A stretch of DNA of 49,797 bases from an uncultured Bacteroidota bacterium (GTDB taxonomy: Bacteria > Bacteroidota > Bacteroidia > B-17B0 > Aurantibacillaceae): NCBI GenBank assembly GCA_903834765.1, contig CAILKE010000014.1, positions 1-49,797 of the forward strand. The letters run 5' to 3'. The stretch's first letter is position 1; each line of letters opens with the position of its first letter. Positions 2,259 to 41,254 of the stretch are shown here, one piece after another. Made by a program: the position numbers and the translations under genes. Under the pieces are notes generated by a model. It made no database searches. It was not told the DNA's origin and saw nothing but the letters and a program-made list of their open reading frames with translations.

Positions 2259-3341
2259 TTAAAATGACATTTGCCATCCTGCAAAAATCATTTGAGTTGT
2301 TTTCATTTGAATGCCATTTGCTTGTTGGTAAAACGGAATACCATATTCGATTAAAAGTTGGTTGCCTTTTAAACATCCTTTTGGAATTAAAAAATTCAAT
2401 CCACCAAAAACTCCCAATCGCTTGCCCCCACTATTTTTTGTGTCGGCCATAGGATCAATTGCTCTATATGGAGATATTTCTTTATCAAAACCATACATTT
2501 TAGCAGATGCGTTTCCTTCAACCCGTATTGAATTACTTATCCAGTTATTACATTTATAAGCAATCCAAGCAGTGGCATTAGCTGCATTTCCATAAGAATA
2601 GTTATAACGGTTAACACCAATATTGATAATTCCTGTAGCTTGAACTCCCCACGAAAAATGATTGGCATAACCAGTATATGTTAATCCTGGCAACCAAGCA
2701 TAGGTGCCAGTTCCCAATTGCATGCTATACGATTTACGCTGATCTTGTCCTGCATGTGTTGTACCATATAATGAAATACTGCCTGTAGGAAGGTTAATAC
2801 CGTTGCTTACCAAAATTTCATGATTATTCTTATGAATCAATTTATATAAAACATATAATTTTGTATCACTAAATCCTTTCGAATTATCCGTCATATCCAT
2901 AGTAGAGTTCATTGAGGTCATATTCATACTTCCCATATTCATGTTGCCCATGCCATACATACTCATGGTCATATCCATATCATTCACAACATAGTTTGCC
3001 ATTGCCATCAATGTTATTTTATCTGTGATGCCATACATAAGCATCAACATGTGCATTTGCATTTGCATGTTGTTGGGCGACATGATATAATTTTGCATAA
3101 TGGCATCTGATTCAATCGGAGAAGTATTTTTAATATTCCCTTTCATAAACATGTTCATATATCTATAAGAGATCATCCATTGACCCTTATCGTGACCATG
3201 ATCTAACATAACACCAATAGGCGCATGGAAATCAGGTCTGGAATTACAACCACAATTTTTTTTACAGATACTGTCTTGTGATATAGCGTTACTCATATTA
3301 ATTATTAATATGAGTAACCATACATTTTTTAGTGAAACCAT
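2259..3341 (-). CDS. Methionine-rich outer-membrane beta-barrel, putative copper transporter
   Basis: A 360-residue secreted protein with an N-terminal signal and then a Cys cluster (CKKNCGC, residues 26-32). It has the family opening DHGHDKGQWMISYRYM and a pattern of amphipathic strands ending in Phe, as outer-membrane barrels do. It contains 35 Met, 26 of them between residues 56 and 150. At residues 92-102 every second residue is Met, and a similar run occurs at 122-128, so Met side chains would line one face of strands. Met-rich stretches commonly bind Cu(I). It lies between the MbnP-like gene and the micro-membrane gene. Function as a copper channel is inference; a Phenol_MetA_deg-like barrel is the other family it resembles. 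Confidence 0.7.
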   Translation of the reverse strand: MVSLKNVWLLILIINMSNAISQDSICKKNCGCNSRPDFHAPIGVMLDHGHDKGQWMISYRYMNMFMKGNIKNTSPIESDAIMQNYIMSPNNMQMQMHMLMLMYGITDKITLMAMANYVVNDMDMTMSMYGMGNMNMGSMNMTSMNSTMDMTDNSKGFSDTKLYVLYKLIHKNNHEILVSNGINLPTGSISLYGTTHAGQDQRKSYSMQLGTGTYAWLPGLTYTGYANHFSWGVQATGIINIGVNRYNYSYGNAANATAWIAYKCNNWISNSIRVEGNASAKMYGFDKEISPYRAIDPMADTKNSGGKRLGVFGGLNFLIPKGCLKGNQLLIEYGIPFYQQANGIQMKTTQMIFAGWQMSF

Positions 3342-4531: not shown

Positions 4532-5506
4532 TTATTTTTTTCGTTCGATGGAATAATTAACTAATTGTATTAAGCTTTGCTTTGATGGACTATCCTTTAC
4601 TGTTTCTAAGCAAGATAATGACTTTTCTTTGAACTGCTGCATCACTTTTTCAGCATAATCAATACCACCTTTTTGATGAACAAAACTAACAACTTCGGCT
4701 ACTTTTATAGGATCATCGTTATGATTTTTAATGATATTGATCATCTTCCGTTTTTCTGACCAAGTACAATTATTTAGAGCATAAATTAATGGCAACGTCA
4801 TTTTTTTTTCTTTAATATCAATACCTGTAGGTTTGCCTATCGATGTATCGTCACCGAAATCAAACAAATCATCTTTTATTTGAAAAGCAATTCCCGTATT
4901 AATTCCGAAATCCAAAAACTGATCTATAACTTTTTTATCATCTGTTAAAGAAGCCACGCCGGCTGCACAACAAGCAGCAATGAGTGTTGCTGTTTTTTTA
5001 CGAATAATTTCAAAATATATTTCTTCAGAGATATCGAGTTTACGAGCTTTTTCAATTTGCAACAATTCACCCTCACTCATTTCACGAACAGCATTACTTA
5101 CTATTTTTAATAAATGGAAATCACTATTATCGATGGAAAGCAATAAACCACTTGATAATAAAAAATCACCAATTAATACAGCAATTTTATTTTTCCAAAG
5201 TGCATTAACACTAAAAAATCCTCGTCGCTCGTTACTATCATCAACTACATCGTCATGCACTAAAGTTGCTGTGTGAAGTAATTCAATTAAGGATGCCGCT
5301 CGGTAAGTACTTTCATTAATTTCTCCAACGCACTGTGCACTTAAAAACACAAACATGGGACGCATTTGTTTACCCTTACGTTTAACGATATAACCTGTGA
5401 TTTTATTTAATAAAGGTACATTACTCTTCATCGACTGTTTGAACTTAATTTCAAACTCATCCATGTGCTTTGTAATCGGCGCTTTTATTTGATCAACAAT
5501 ATTCAC
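4532..5506 (-). CDS. All-trans polyprenyl diphosphate synthase
   Basis: A 324-residue class I trans-prenyltransferase that extends an allylic diphosphate with isopentenyl diphosphate; in Bacteroidota it supplies the menaquinone side chain. First Asp-rich motif HDDVVDD at residues 84-90 (D85, D86, D89), second motif in FQIKDDLFDFGDD near residue 215, and the substrate GKQMRP (45-50) at the start. The start codon is GTG at 5504-5506. Chain length (hepta/octa) cannot be read from sequence by eye, so ispB is not asserted. The menaquinone methyltransferase in this window (19983-20720) would act on the same pathway. Confidence 0.9.
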   Translation of the reverse strand: MNIVDQIKAPITKHMDEFEIKFKQSMKSNVPLLNKITGYIVKRKGKQMRPMFVFLSAQCVGEINESTYRAASLIELLHTATLVHDDVVDDSNERRGFFSVNALWKNKIAVLIGDFLLSSGLLLSIDNSDFHLLKIVSNAVREMSEGELLQIEKARKLDISEEIYFEIIRKKTATLIAACCAAGVASLTDDKKVIDQFLDFGINTGIAFQIKDDLFDFGDDTSIGKPTGIDIKEKKMTLPLIYALNNCTWSEKRKMINIIKNHNDDPIKVAEVVSFVHQKGGIDYAEKVMQQFKEKSLSCLETVKDSPSKQSLIQLVNYSIERKK

Positions 5507-8941: not shown

Positions 8942-9357
8942 TGTTTTTTATTTTGACCCTTTAATTGCTGTAAACACCAACTTTCAGCATCTACGATATT
9001 CTTAAATAATTTAGATGGGTTAACAGGTTTATTGATTTTTAAATAAAAATTAGCAATAAGTCGATGAGCTAAAGAAGTCACTACAAATGCGCTACAAATT
9101 TTAGGAAATTCATGTTGATTTTGTTTAGAATATGCATTACCCTCGGCAGTGAATACGACAGAGCCGTCTTCAGCTGAATAAAGATAAGGATAACTCACTC
9201 CTTCAACTAAATCATTAAATACCTCGAATAATTTCTTTAAAGCAGAAGGATCAATTTCTTTGTTTTTCTTAAACAGAACTCTAACAATACCATCATTACA
9301 CATTGATATATATGCAACCTCCGTTTCAACTTTTTTTATAACAATGTAGTTTGACAT
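8938..9357 (-). CDS. Conserved hypothetical with STAS/SpoIIAA-like pattern
   Basis: A 139-residue soluble protein without signal or membrane segment. The alternating strands and helices (VEVAYISMCNDGIVRVLF-type opening, then a helix with ALKKLFEVFNDLVEG, then the strand FVVTSLAHRLIANFYL) resemble small Bacteroidota proteins of the STAS/SEC14-like type. It is transcribed convergently to the EEP-family gene, the two stops overlapping by four bases. Family assignment is weak; the gene itself is convincing from frame length and position. Confidence 0.65.
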   Translation of the reverse strand: MSNYIVIKKVETEVAYISMCNDGIVRVLFKKNKEIDPSALKKLFEVFNDLVEGVSYPYLYSAEDGSVVFTAEGNAYSKQNQHEFPKICSAFVVTSLAHRLIANFYLKINKPVNPSKLFKNIVDAESWCLQQLKGQNKKH

Positions 9358-35950: not shown

Positions 35951-36023
35951 GGTACCTTAGCTCAGTCGGTAGAGCAATAGACTGAAAATCTATGTGTCCC
36001 TGGTTCGATTCCTGGAGGTACCA
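35951..36023 (+). tRNA. tRNA-Phe (anticodon GAA)
   Basis: 73 nt with acceptor stem GGTACCT/AGGTACC, D-loop region TAGCTCAGTCGGTAGAGC, anticodon stem ATAGA/TCTAT around the loop CTGAAAA, and T-arm CCTGG-TTCGATT-CCTGG. The discriminator base is A and CCA is not encoded. It marks the border between core genome on the left and accessory DNA on the right. Confidence 0.98.
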
Positions 36024-36037
36024 CAATCAAAACAAAT

Positions 36038-36071: not shown

Positions 36072-36405
36072 GATTTAATGGGTAACAACATAGGTACAAC
36101 ATTCAGTTCTGTTCAAAACTTTTCATCCGTTGAACCCTTACCGCTCCAAAAAACACCAACTCATGCTTTATCTATACCTATGGTAGGGAGTAAATATGCC
36201 TTTTACTGTAATTATTATTTCCTTTTTGATGCGAATCGTTATCAAGTAATGCAAACGCAACGCTTTTATGGTCGTGGCGTTTTGATGATTTAGTTTTGTA
36301 GTGTGGAACAAAATCATATTCGCGATAAAGAGATTGTGAAACCAAAATTGAAGCGACTGCAGCGCCTAAATTTTGAAATTCAAAAATCAATCTAAAAATT
36401 AAATC
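36072..36405. other. Spacer between tRNA-Phe terminator and accessory cassette
   Basis: 334 bases without a convincing gene. Short frames on both strands lack family features, and one on the plus strand begins inside the tRNA. No repeat of the tRNA 3' end was seen here. It probably holds the promoter of the gene at 36406; a TAGTTTTG box at 36291-36298 fits TAnnTTTG but no -33 partner is clear. Confidence 0.4.
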
Positions 36406-38102: not shown

Positions 38103-38525
38103 TTACTTTTTTAAATATTTATAAAATAAGGATTTGCGCAATTGCATTAAATAATCTAATTGTGTTTGAAGATTTACTTTTAAAGCTTCAATTTGAGTCA
38201 AAGAATTTTGAACATCAGAAAACGAACGATTGCCGGTATTAACTGAGTTTAAAGTTTCTTCTACAACATCAATTAAATCGCCTAAGCGAATATAATCGAT
38301 TACTGAGCCCATAAGGTGTTTTCTAAAAAAACGAAGCTCCCATAAGCCTAATAATAAGAAAAAGTAAAACTCTTTTTCATTTTCATCATCTGCCAGGAAT
38401 ACAAAACAATTTGAACAATAATGTGGCAATGGTTTGCCTGAGTTTAATCCTTTATTTAAAATAAAGAAATGATGTTGTTTGTAGGTTGTACCTAATTTGT
38501 GTGTTTTAATTTTTGATTTTAGCAT
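38103..38525 (-). CDS. DUF6943-like protein
   Basis: About 140 residues from the ATG at 38525 (MLKSKIKTHKLGTTYK); the frame can be extended to a GTG at 38561. The N-terminal signature KIKTHKLGTTYKQHHFFILN and KGLNSGKPLPHYCSNCFVF is that of a small Bacteroidota family I associate with DUF6943 and mobile DNA. It contains a Cys pair (CSNC) and a long C-terminal helix region (SLTQIEALKVNLQTQLDYL). Function unknown. Convergent with the cassette. Confidence 0.75.
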   Translation of the reverse strand: MLKSKIKTHKLGTTYKQHHFFILNKGLNSGKPLPHYCSNCFVFLADDENEKEFYFFLLLGLWELRFFRKHLMGSVIDYIRLGDLIDVVEETLNSVNTGNRSFSDVQNSLTQIEALKVNLQTQLDYLMQLRKSLFYKYLKK

Positions 38526-38561
38526 AACTATTTTTTTAAGGGTTTGTTTCCCTTTTTCCAC

Positions 38562-38880
38562 CTTGTGCTTTGAACTTTTGATTAATTGAAAACAAAGAAA
38601 AAACGCAAAAAAACGAGCTAAAGAAAAGCCCGAAAAAAATGAAAAAAGAAAGCATTTTGTAAAAGGCTGGACACTGAGGTTGTCAAGGTTTTTGACAAAA
38701 AAAATACTACCTGAATGAGGTAGTATTAAAAATGATTCCTTTATATGAACCGAATGAAGTGTGGAGATTTTTTTTGCAAAACCCGAAGGGCTTGACCTTG
38801 CAATCCGAAAGTGGAAAGCCTTAAATTGCTTTTCTTTTTTTATTTTTGAATAATTTACCTGTTAATACATTCTATTTTTA
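38562..38880. other. AT-rich spacer before the structured region
   Basis: About 320 bases without a gene; A-rich in the first half. It contains the hairpin at 38703-38727 and a -7-like TATTTTTG (38841-38848) without a good -33 partner, which could start a plus-strand transcript of the structured region. Confidence 0.35.
38703..38727 (-). terminator. Hairpin with T-run on the minus strand
   Basis: 10-bp perfect stem AATACTACCT (38703-38712) / AGGTAGTATT (38718-38727), loop GAATG. On the minus strand the stem is followed by TTTTTTTT, a standard terminator; on the plus strand it is followed by AAAAATG. It would stop transcription entering from the right. Confidence 0.65.
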
Positions 38881-39540
38881 AAATAAATATCGATTGGAAT
38901 GTAATGGTAAAAGCGCCTGCGGCGTGGGAAGGAAAACGGTTGCAAAAAATGAAGTGAGGTACGAACAAAATGATTTGCAATCCGTTGTGCGGCGAGCCAC
39001 CTGCGAGTGGAGAGAGGGTGTGCAGCATGGGAGCATGAAGAGGTACGATGAATGCGGATGCAAACTATGTGGCAAGTGTGGCAAACTAAATAAATTAATC
39101 TACCTTAATTTATGCCACACGATAGAAACACAAGGGCAATGGGTTGGTTTATTTTTATGCTTAGCTTTTTGCGTTGGAAAAAATAAGCGCCCATTGAACG
39201 CAGCCCGAACGACTATGCAGGCGAGCTGAAAAGTTGGTAGCCGGTGGACTGAAAGTGGCTGAAATGAGTGAAGTGAAATGAAACCCAGTGTAAGTAGTAA
39301 AGCGGATGTAACGGGTGTAATGTAACGAAATGAATGAAGGTACTTGAAGGACAAAGGAGGCTACCGTGACGAAAGCACGGGCAACGAGCAAAAAATGTGA
39401 CAAACCCAAAGCCCGACCATAGAGATGGGCAAAATAGCTTATGCTTAAAGCCTTGAAAACACGTAGTTAAAGCATGTGCTATTTTGGTTTGGCGCAATTT
39501 GTTGCTTGCACCTGCTGAGGAACACCACTTTACCTGTTAC
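38881..39540 (+). ncRNA. Candidate large structured RNA, about 650 nt
   Basis: A GC-richer, gene-free block between AT-rich flanks. Long complementary pairs: AACGG+TTGCAAA (38935-38946) with TTTGCAA+CCGTT (38974-38986); GTGTGGCA (39076-39083) with TGCCACAC (39113-39120), enclosing TAAATTAA/TTAATTTA; CAATGGG (39137-39143) with CCCATTG (39190-39196), enclosing GCTTA/TAAGC and a T5/A5 stem; GGTAGCC (39236-39242) with GGCTACC (39359-39365); CCGTG/CACGG (39364-39380); CAAAATAGC (39430-39438) with GCTATTTTG (39478-39486), enclosing ATGCTT/AAGCAT. A loop-to-3' pairing TGCGTT/AACGCA suggests a pseudoknot. Strand is uncertain; plus is preferred for purine-rich loops. Not recognised as RNase P, tmRNA, SRP or a group I/II intron. 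Confidence 0.5.
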
Positions 39541-39550
39541 AAGAAGGGAG

Positions 39551-39606
39551 TGTAATCTGAACTGTGTCAAATTATTTTTTTTATATTTGACACAGTTTAA
39601 TTTACA
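39551..39606. repeat. Long hairpin between structured region and AbiE genes
   Basis: 13-bp perfect inverted repeat AACTGTGTCAAAT (39560-39572) / ATTTGACACAGTT (39585-39597) around a T-rich 12-base loop, with an outer TGTAA (39551-39555) / TTACA (39602-39606) match. It could be a terminator for the AbiE operon or the structured RNA, or an element end. Confidence 0.6.
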
Positions 39607-39631
39607 TCCTCTACAAGAAATCAAAATAGAT

Positions 39632-40423
39632 TTATAAAAGTAATAAGAGTTCTTTCTTTACCATTTCATAAGCAACAGTGTGTTCGTATTTTTCTTCGGG
39701 ACGTAACAACGCTGTAATATCTCCTAAAAAGTTTTCGCTTTTCATCTTCGCTTCCATGTTATCTATGAACTCTTTTTGAGATGGAATTTTGCCTACTGAA
39801 AATTCCATGTACTTTTTAAAGCATTGTATTACTTGTTTTCCATCAACGTCAGTTGTAGTAAATGCTTTGTATAAATCATATAAATCCCTTCCTTTTCTTC
39901 TTTGATAAAGAGCTCTTAATTTTGTTCCTAACAGTTCTTCAATTTTATATGTTGTGATATTACACTCTCCATTAAACCATTCTGAGTTTACAATAAATGG
40001 TACTTTTTGCCATCCTAATTCTGCAAAATGTTCTCTACAATTAGTTTCTACTTTTAATTTAATTTGTGTTATTGGTGGAATTTCAGAAGGAAATCTATAT
40101 TTCAATTCAGTCATTAAATCACCAGGAGAAACATTTATTTTTCCTTCAATAAAACTTAAAGCTATTTTTAATCTATCCAAAATTTCACCAAATGGAACTG
40201 CCTTTATTTGAACCAAGTCTATATCTTCTGAATATCTTGGTTGAGGACTTAAAAATAATTTATGTAAAGCTGTACCTCCTCTAAATGCTAAGTTTTCTGC
40301 TAAAAAATCATCGTTGAATATTGCAACTAAAGCTCTGCAAATTACCAAATCCTGTTCTACCTGTTCGTTTGTACTCCATGGAACATTATTACTCCATTCT
40401 ATTATGTATGCTTGAGGTATCAT
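39632..40423 (-). CDS. AbiEii-family nucleotidyltransferase toxin
   Basis: 263 residues of the AbiEii/DUF1814 family, a polymerase-beta-like nucleotidyltransferase. The GGT of FRGGTALHKLF (49-51) is followed by RYSEDIDLV with the metal Asp pair 67 and 69. Related toxins block growth, probably by adding nucleotides to a target RNA. It follows its antitoxin gene by 9 bases. Type IV toxin-antitoxin systems give abortive phage defence and stabilise mobile DNA. Confidence 0.9.
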   Translation of the reverse strand: MIPQAYIIEWSNNVPWSTNEQVEQDLVICRALVAIFNDDFLAENLAFRGGTALHKLFLSPQPRYSEDIDLVQIKAVPFGEILDRLKIALSFIEGKINVSPGDLMTELKYRFPSEIPPITQIKLKVETNCREHFAELGWQKVPFIVNSEWFNGECNITTYKIEELLGTKLRALYQRRKGRDLYDLYKAFTTTDVDGKQVIQCFKKYMEFSVGKIPSQKEFIDNMEAKMKSENFLGDITALLRPEEKYEHTVAYEMVKKELLLLL

Positions 40424-40432
40424 TTTGTTATT

Positions 40433-41254
40433 TTAAATATCTGATTCTACTTCGGTATTAATTATCACTTTCCATTTTTCATCAAAAGGAAATCCTTTCT
40501 TTTCACCTGATTCGCTAAGCGGTTTTCGGTTAAATTTTAATTCTGCTTGCAGACAAATATTATATAGTTTCTCTGCAATTGTATCTTTATTCAAAATTTT
40601 ATCTAAAATATAACCTAGGCGCTGTAGTGTTACCAATGGTATTTCTTTTACAAATTCTTTAGTAATACTTTCTGGTTTTATTTCATCTGCTAATTCTTCT
40701 AACACAGTTGCTACTCTACTTAATCCACCAACTCTTTTTTGAAATTGAATTAAATCAGTAGCTGTTAAAATTGGAGATGATATTTTTATGTAACCAGTTT
40801 CTGTTTTACGGTTTTCGGTATATTGTTCAGGAACTGTTTTTCTACTGATGTAACTAATTTTAATTCCTTTTTTATTAGTTACACGCATTTGCGGAAATTC
40901 AGTTACAACAAAAAATTCTTGAGGTTGCTGATGCGATGCTCCATGAAATACCGCAGCGTTTAAAAGAGCTAAGTAATAAGGTCTTTTATAATATTTCATT
41001 AATCCATCTAAAAAAATAGTAGGTGGTAAAATACCACGCGATGCATATTGAGAAGATATTATTAAGTAATATCCGTTACTTATAGAAATTATTTTATTCT
41101 TTTTGAATAAACGATTAATAGAACGATTTAGTGATATTTCTGAATTTTCAGGAAAGGCCGCCCTTAATTCTTCAATAGAAAACGACGTTTTCCCTTTAGA
41201 AGCTAGTTGGTCTATCCAATCAATTAATCTATTATGAGTATTTATATCTTTCAT
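40433..41254 (-). CDS. AbiEi-type antitoxin/transcription regulator
   Basis: 273 residues. N-terminal winged helix (IDQLASKGKTSFSIEELRAA, RSINRLFKKNKIISISNGYY), then the AbiEi core with PPTIFLDGLMKYYKRPYY, LLNAAVFHGASHQQPQEFF and the VVTEF strand, and a C-terminal helical part (RVGGLSRVATVLEELADEI). In AbiE systems this protein represses its own promoter and neutralises the toxin without stable binding. First gene of the minus-strand pair. Confidence 0.88.
   Translation of the reverse strand: MKDINTHNRLIDWIDQLASKGKTSFSIEELRAAFPENSEISLNRSINRLFKKNKIISISNGYYLIISSQYASRGILPPTIFLDGLMKYYKRPYYLALLNAAVFHGASHQQPQEFFVVTEFPQMRVTNKKGIKISYISRKTVPEQYTENRKTETGYIKISSPILTATDLIQFQKRVGGLSRVATVLEELADEIKPESITKEFVKEIPLVTLQRLGYILDKILNKDTIAEKLYNICLQAELKFNRKPLSESGEKKGFPFDEKWKVIINTEVESDI

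Follow-up and report, generated by a model that had tools for sequence, protein, structure and literature searches.

A large structured RNA from Bacteroidia forms a new class, akin in kind to known ornate RNAs

Comparison with described large RNAs

According to PMC12286853, GOLLD and ROOL have their genes in phages and prophages, frequently close to tRNA islands; they form cages, their function is unknown, and the level of GOLLD rises during lysis. The RNA described here was found in a 49,797-nt stretch of DNA from an uncultured Bacteroidota bacterium, the whole of which is called the window (Table 1). It resembles GOLLD, as portrayed in that text (PMC12286853), as a large ornate RNA that probably belongs to mobile DNA and at part of its loci lies close to tRNAs, and differs in giving no Rfam GOLLD match, in belonging to another phylum, in being accompanied by a second structured element, hp5, and in giving no hit in 50,697 phage records. 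With ROOL it has in common a similar length (659 nt for ROOL env-120 in the same source, PMC12286853), many helices and a probable mobile-element setting, whilst it has no Rfam match to ROOL, has P249, DUF6943 and hp5 as neighbours in the window's family and lies beside cargo that varies. OLE, as far as its available description goes, is likewise ∼600 nt long, highly structured and of unclear function, but it is described from Gram-positive extremophiles and again there is no Rfam match. As at integron attI/attC sites, varied genes collect beside a structured element; in contrast to those sites, size and G-U strand bias point to an RNA, and recombinase pairs are found at only 8/63 RNA loci. 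The recombinases at RNA loci are, by Pfam, generic tyrosine recombinases. Setting and size are the grounds on which the new RNA is compared with GOLLD and ROOL.

An earlier note on the window had raised the possibility of another class of very large structured RNA beside GOLLD and ROOL. When the window and 16 loci were searched with the 4227 families of Rfam 15 (cmscan), only tRNA reached gathering scores, which agrees with a separate class. GOLLD, ROOL and OLE were absent from the 11 Rfam hits up to E 5 in 38560-39620, and the likeness drawn in the note holds for kind and setting and does not extend to homology. Below threshold, the palindrome at 39530-39620 gave hits to miRNA-type families and SQ2397 (best E 8.2e-5, scoring 34.7 bits where the cut-off is 100), and hp5 gave hits to Phe_leader, tsr26 and sok at E 0.8-4.2. 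The available part of PMC2864571 lists Bacteroidetes motifs, most with Rfam numbers; the Rfam-numbered motifs of that part gave no match here, the numberless Bacteroides-2 and GUCCY-hairpin lying outside the comparison. No description of the RNA was found in open PMC papers, nor any mention of DUF6943 or DUF6266; the RNA may be described in supplementary files or on preprint servers, which lay outside the search. We conclude that the RNA represents a new class of large structured RNAs, found in Bacteroidia, and that in kind it ranks with the known ornate RNAs.

The RNA unit and its consensus structure

A blastn search with 38881-39545 (E ≤ 0.001) gave matches, some of them short, in 32 of 199 related genomes, the window's own included; several families of the class are represented, and the window's own genome has a further copy of 82% identity. 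The homologues align from GGTAAAAGCGCC to GAACACCNNTTTACC, with mostly unrelated flanks beyond both ends save for a short TGTT tail; the hp5 side is also common to the window, L035 and L036 (L numbers denote loci, G numbers genomes). The 30 full-length copies measure 467-710 nt, much of the difference lying in hairpin tips and side arms. Two covariance models were used, R1 for the 3' domain (built from 39386-39534 and 24 homologues) and, separately, R2 for the 5' domain, the window's own genome being included in their tallies. R1 matched 28 of 395 genomes drawn from the class, 27 of 87 family genomes (34 hits) and 4 of 395 genomes drawn from the phylum, all four within the window's class. R2 matched 21 of the 87 family genomes, and 25 of its 26 hits lay beside an R1 hit. 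All model hits in genomes fall in the window's class, Bacteroidia. No match to the RNA was found among the 50,697 records of the phage collection, and plasmids gave a single weak one (Marivirga, E 1e-3). R1 likewise had no hit in three cultured genomes that carry P249, those of Sediminibacterium salmoneum, Lacibacter cauensis and Mesohalobacter halotolerans.

The ends of the unit are set by the closing pair 38906-38911/39529-39534. A structured RNA does lie within 38881-39540, the extent originally suggested, and the exact unit is corrected to 38906-39534. The description of a GC-rich island without plausible genes was borne out: among the 500-nt blocks of the window, 39001-39500 has the highest G+C content (44%, against 21-40% in the remaining blocks), and the ORFs within the RNA region, of 68-111 aa, overlap one another, none being conserved. 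Both strands of 38881-39600 fold better than dinucleotide shuffles (z of −4.2 for plus and −4.9 for minus, 20 shuffles per strand), so that folding energy alone fails to choose the strand; for 38906-39534, z was −3.2 and 0/100 shuffles were as low. By our own matching, the helices listed in the note correspond to consensus helices 3, 8, 9 and 14-15, and the main ones are present where described. The motif AGGTAC, which the note had placed in loops, does occur three times (38957, 39041 and 39338, against 0.2 expected by composition), but it is not conserved in homologues, and at 39338 it forms one side of helix 11 rather than a loop.

The consensus was derived with RNAalifold from 23 MAFFT-aligned homologues, which had been found by blastn, blind to structure, and comprises 87 pairs in 15 helices. 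This alignment, A1, omits L041, L057, L061 and L063 (uncertain 5' ends) and L047, L049, L050, L056, L062, L064 and L066 (partial or poorly delimited at first pass); alignment A2 omits these last seven together with L046 and L061 (long inserts). In a count made without prediction, standard pairs fill 96.8% of the 1989 cells, and pairing falls to 33-45% in slid controls with the 3' partners moved by 1-3 columns. Changes on both sides were seen in 55 of the 87 pairs (235 cells), and 0/500 shuffles attained any of five measures. A home-made, R-scape-like test, in which substitutions were re-placed on the tree and all column pairs served as background, gave E<0.05 for 3/87 pairs, E<1 for 7/87, and E<0.05 for one pair outside the structure; we read the small number of significant pairs in this stricter test as low power with 23 related sequences. 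A further 32 3' domains, aligned without structure after six weak or partial loci and two near-duplicates had been left out, had 88.8% of cells paired, against 41-46% when slid, and double changes in 182 cells, a number that in 300 shuffles never exceeded 72. This result is supporting rather than independent because most of these sequences were found with the structural model R1. Compensatory changes, whose absence in homologues the note had named as its refutation, are therefore present in 55/87 pairs, and the further sequences agree.

The closing helix reads GGTAAA/TTTACC in the window and GGTTAT/ATAACC or GGAAAA/TTTTCC in homologues. Helix 3 is paired in 99.4% of cells, its first pair being C-G in 12/23 and U-A in 10/23 homologues. 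Helix 5 is paired in 100% of cells and 6 of its 8 pairs are invariant; its support is thus conservation and not covariation. In 17/23 homologues helix 10 contains a tandem G-A/G-A internal loop; by eye, sequences capable of Watson-Crick pairing replace it in L035, L043, L059 and L060. Helices 14-15 lie at 39430-39486, and helix 15 has double changes at all 10 of its pairs. In A1 the tips of helix 8 and of other hairpins bear palindromes, either AT-rich or GC-rich, that are unrelated to one another, which looks as though mobile palindromes enter tolerant stem ends; a similar tip occurs in hp5 of L043.

At the 87 pairs, G-U cells far outnumber A-C cells (101 against 16), which assigns the RNA to the plus strand. 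A coding reading of the 111-aa ORF was rejected, as the aligned span is a multiple of 3 in 10/23 sequences, the window included, and not in 13/23. The window RNA thus shows what is expected of a large covarying noncoding RNA, compensatory changes without a conserved frame. There is almost certainly a structured RNA under selection for structure on the plus strand at 38906-39534, which would be transcribed.

Some features adjoin the unit. A near-perfect palindrome at 39551-39606, right after the RNA, falls outside it and is missing from nine aligned homologues; parts of it recur at G000:C34:47456-47494 and G000:C57:81282-81307, and it is perhaps a dispersed palindromic repeat or a terminator. 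The sequence TTTACCTGTTA is present twice, at 38854-38864, just 5' of the RNA, and at 39529-39539, its 3' end, so that the first copy may rival the second in forming the closing helix. A Bacteroidota-type promoter pattern was found in 3/30 stretches upstream of the RNA, where random windows gave 1.1 and shuffles 0.9, with no clear enrichment. An extension of the closing helix into the flanks, apparent by eye in some copies, was discarded, since over 28 copies 100/300 flank re-pairings matched the observed pairs and 28/300 the energy.

Table 1. Coordinates of the features of the window, followed by features of other loci
Feature	Position	Strand	Description
tRNA-Phe (GAA)	35951..36024	+	382 nt before P249
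Leader between tRNA and P249	36080..36327	+	tandem repeat 36080-36101; conserved TATTCGCGATA 36317-36327
P249	36406..37155	+	Bacteroidota protein
P81	37233..37478	+	small hydrophobic protein; order conserved; hydropathy peak 2.1
P106	37506..37826	+	small protein; order conserved
P61	37837..38022	+	small hydrophobic protein; order conserved; hydropathy peak 2.2
DUF6943 (PF22105) gene	38103..38561	-	start adjoins hp5
hp5	38635..38847	+	outer A-rich/T-rich inverted repeat, inner CAAGG...CCTTG hairpin, terminal T run
Large structured RNA, 629 nt	38906..39534	+	GGTAAAAGCGCC ... GAACACCACTTTACC; homologues with sharp common ends and 87-pair consensus
Closing helix 1, 5' strand	38906..38911	+	pairs with 39529-39534
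Helix 3 hairpin	38940..38980	+	TTGCAAA/TTTGCAA, strands 38940-38946/38974-38980; inner purine-rich stem
Helix 5	38996..39226	+	long-range, ∼230 nt, closes multibranched domain; 38996-39004 with 39217-39226
Helices 6 and 7	39025..39061	+	double changes in 7/8 pairs
Helix 8 hairpin	39076..39120	+	GTGTG/CACAC; double changes in 5/5 pairs; tips vary among homologues
Helices 9-11	39236..39365	+	arm with tandem G-A/G-A internal loop; helix 9 GGTAGCC/GGCTACC, 39236-39242/39359-39365, span 130 nt
3' domain, helices 12-15	39388..39505	+	core of model R1; double changes in 24/33 pairs
AbiEii	39632-40423	-	Pfam and PADLOC; neighbour after RNA
AbiEi	40433-41254	-	Pfam; type IV toxin-antitoxin pair with AbiEii
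L058 integrative element, 6.2 kb, at tRNA-Lys	G167:C72, 2998-9254		RNA orientation; complete-looking; arm-type repeats at each end
Adjacent tyrosine recombinase pair after RNA	L209, L210, L211, L212, L225, L228, L229, L068		

Neighbouring genes, hp5 and carriers

The hp5 consensus comprises 29 pairs, with 94.5% of cells paired against 43-57% when slid (19 members); 9/29 pairs have double changes, and G-U cells outnumber A-C cells by 43 to 3. Structure and counts were drawn from one alignment, from which seven rows were left out. A minus-strand hp5 (22 pairs, 97.4% paired, 6 with double changes) was rejected, its alifold energy being −6.4 against −18.0 on the plus strand. hp5 is present at 38/80 P249 loci, and at 29/63 RNA loci it precedes the RNA and has the same orientation. 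An RNA-profile hit was obtained at 17/80 P249 loci, all 17 with hp5 upstream on the same strand; at four of these (L145, L146, L149 and L184) the RNA matches are weak and partial only, which points to divergent members. The full-length RNA profile gave no hit at 63/80 P249 loci, where some contigs are short.

In the family the usual order is (tRNA), leader, P249, P81, P106, P61, DUF6943 on the opposite strand, hp5, variable genes, RNA, variable genes. The gap between DUF6943 and the RNA is 304-356 nt in 4/22 loci and 0.7-5.8 kb in the others, and a DUF5675 gene follows P249 in L036 (by Pfam) and in L039 and L216 (by eye). P81 may be holin-like, judging by its size and profile. At least 460 of 596 candidate stretches in GTDB genomes contained a relative; there were no relatives among 62 IMG/VR candidates and no match in phage records. 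The structural model of P249 was of low confidence (mean pLDDT 57.6), with a best Foldseek E of 7.8e-3 and a best VIA-align Z of 6.4, none reaching 8; no solved relatives of P249 or DUF6943 were found at E<0.2, and the P249 profile gave no alignment to the DUF6266 protein. Many RNA copies have no P249 within reach.

The tRNA preceding P249 varies (Phe in the window, otherwise Glu, Cys, Lys, Asp and others). The distance from tRNA to P249 is 362-382 nt in seven loci, namely the window, L037, L038, L043, L048, L055 and L058. Scanning of 60 of the 80 P249 loci, L038 and L043 among them, placed a tRNA 313-581 nt before P249 in 8 and none within 1 kb upstream, on the P249 strand, in 52. The leader carries a tandem repeat of ∼10 bp whose sequence differs between loci whilst its two halves agree within a locus. 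The RNA had been described as lying in accessory DNA near a tRNA. Its setting is indeed accessory DNA, tied in part to tRNAs; the tRNA-Phe at 35951-36024 is present yet 2.9 kb off, and linkage to tRNAs is partial across loci. In four of 15 stretches next to coaX taken from the genus, the gene immediately after tRNA-Phe encodes a protein of ∼415-440 aa. No right border was set for the window's island, because the only G000 match to this protein is distant (30% over 150 residues) and the contig ends.

The best-delimited carrier of the RNA is the integrative element at a tRNA in L058. There the tRNA-Lys region ends in a stretch of 17 nt (3055-3071) that is repeated exactly at 9238-9254, and between these end repeats lie a P249 fragment, the RNA (4604-5294), HipA-type genes and an integrase of 402 aa that has an arm-binding domain. 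The leader repeat GGGGTAAACATTTT at 3128 recurs at 9115, there in tandem, and a leader-type repeat is thus also seen at the far end of the element. Among 12 loci in one test of tRNA-end repeats, and 7 plus the window in another, L058 had a convincing pair; two further loci gave a neighbouring tRNA-like stretch only, L045 a 13-nt match, and the rest nothing. Arm-type integrases like those of L058 or L330 occur at 6/63 RNA loci (L058 included) and 14/80 P249 loci, and some of them do not lie on the RNA's far side. Integrases make up 13/117 neighbour proteins, a tally inflated because third neighbours were added where recombinases had been seen; the count of 8/63 loci with a recombinase pair is unaffected.

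Viral contigs were searched through two patterns. For the first, none of 44 loci had an R1 or R2 hit at E 0.01; for the second, none of 7 had R1, and R2 was convincing in L330 only, the other six giving E 0.0039 or worse on DNA of 65-76% G+C. L330 is the IMG/VR contig IMGVR_UViG_3300006045_000545, 4.3 kb long and cut inside the RNA. It carries genes for an Arm-type integrase, an endolysin-like protein, a holin (barely above the cut-off, 22.9 against 22.2) and DUF6266, then hp5 (E 2.3e-18) and the RNA start (E 5.7e-8 by R2). The link to phages runs through L330 alone, since P249 has no phage or IMG/VR match and the RNA none in the phage collection.

Many of the neighbours, which differ between loci, are of toxin-antitoxin or defence type. 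Among the matches listed, the neighbours at RNA loci include AbiE, HipA, Fic, GajA/OLD-type, SocA-like and IrrE-like proteins, and further methyltransferases, secreted proteins and many without a match, the families seen being 25 of 109, 25 of 57 and 25 of 367. Some RNA copies without P249 (L213, L214 and L215 in G356, and L212 and L225) adjoin proteins that resemble RHS toxins and toxin tips, with DUF6443 in L213; this suggests a link between the RNA and polymorphic-toxin loci.

Mobility and possible role

The RNA is carried by integrative elements at least in part. A mobile-element setting, previously judged likely, became highly probable with the L058 element. Our best reading, which we consider probable, is that the RNA forms a new class of ornate RNA belonging to integrative elements and resembles GOLLD and ROOL in kind only. 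Most copies would then ride on L058-like integrative elements, some of them phage-derived; a phage origin would fit the lysis-type genes beside hp5 and the RNA on L330 and the small hydrophobic proteins that the P249 block encodes. On this reading the RNA would be a transcript that serves its element in trans as a folded RNA machine. By analogy with proposals for GOLLD and ROOL, it might act as a scaffold, oligomer or ribonucleoprotein, and we put forward a scaffold or ribonucleoprotein mode of action only tentatively.

An unlikely alternative is that the RNA gene is itself mobile, a structured RNA or single-stranded DNA copied with exact ends by a recombinase or by 3'-end reverse transcription and gathering cargo as it goes. 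It would account for the sharp ends, GGTAAA and TTTACC(TGTT), between mostly unrelated flanks, and for the G356 copies, which are 92-94% alike over 206-480 nt with similarity ending 1-11 nt past the RNA 3' end; similar stops occur in G424 (its 5' side cut by contig starts), G080 and G392. Same-genome copies in G000, G088, G132 and G152, on the other hand, share blocks of 1.1-3.7 kb, and neither a target duplication nor an empty site for the RNA alone was found. At 8/63 loci a tyrosine recombinase pair, reading towards the RNA, starts 0.05-1.6 kb past its 3' end, but the pair is absent at most loci. (In L225 a 570-aa gene without a Pfam match lies directly upstream of the pair.) Hits to R1 only outnumber hits to R2 only by 8 to 1 in the 87 genomes, one contig-end-cut case excluded; two of the eight R1-only copies (L227 and L229) keep most of the 5' part by profile, so that the excess is partly a detection effect. 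In a broader form, hp5 and the large RNA would together make up a two-RNA system carried by integrative elements of Bacteroidia, the large RNA being at the same time a selfish, exactly bounded mobile unit, both machine and cassette border. It would be copied to new sites by the tyrosine-recombinase pair or by reverse transcription, and toxin-antitoxin and defence genes would gather around it. We regard this combination as speculative and doubtful.

It is improbable that the element works as folded DNA, a recombination platform capturing gene cassettes like integron attI/attC. Neighbours do vary on both sides of the RNA, partial ends of the RNA are located past the cargo in L065 and L214, and the nearest ORFs are mostly antiparallel to the RNA (upstream 46/58, downstream 44/61), counts that are not independent because related loci enter them and the upstream ORFs include DUF6943. 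G-U cells outnumber A-C cells six to one, however, 629 nt of branched structure exceeds the needs of a recombinase site, the L058 attachment site is the tRNA end, away from the RNA, and no integron-type array was recognised, without a dedicated search. The AbiE, HipA, SocA-like, Fic and GajA/OLD-type genes nearby might instead point to a regulatory or antitoxin-like RNA of adjoining toxin-antitoxin or defence genes. Yet the RNA core is constant while the neighbours differ between loci, and since these are mostly antiparallel as well, the RNA is not their leader; there is little likelihood of such a role. That the region is ordinary coding or decayed DNA with helices by chance, as its overlapping ORFs of 68-111 aa might suggest, is refuted by the compensatory changes and the unkept 111-aa frame and can be given practically no weight.

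Few bacterial RNAs are so large and structured, and several of them have no known function. Under our preferred reading of an ornate RNA class of integrative elements, its occurrence in another phylum and in many genomes, its partner genes, hp5 and the exchangeable tips offer independent comparative and experimental leverage on ornate RNAs. If the RNA is a mobile unit, it would be a new kind of mobile element. If the setting seen in L058 and L330 is general, ornate RNAs would be a recurrent invention of integrative elements.
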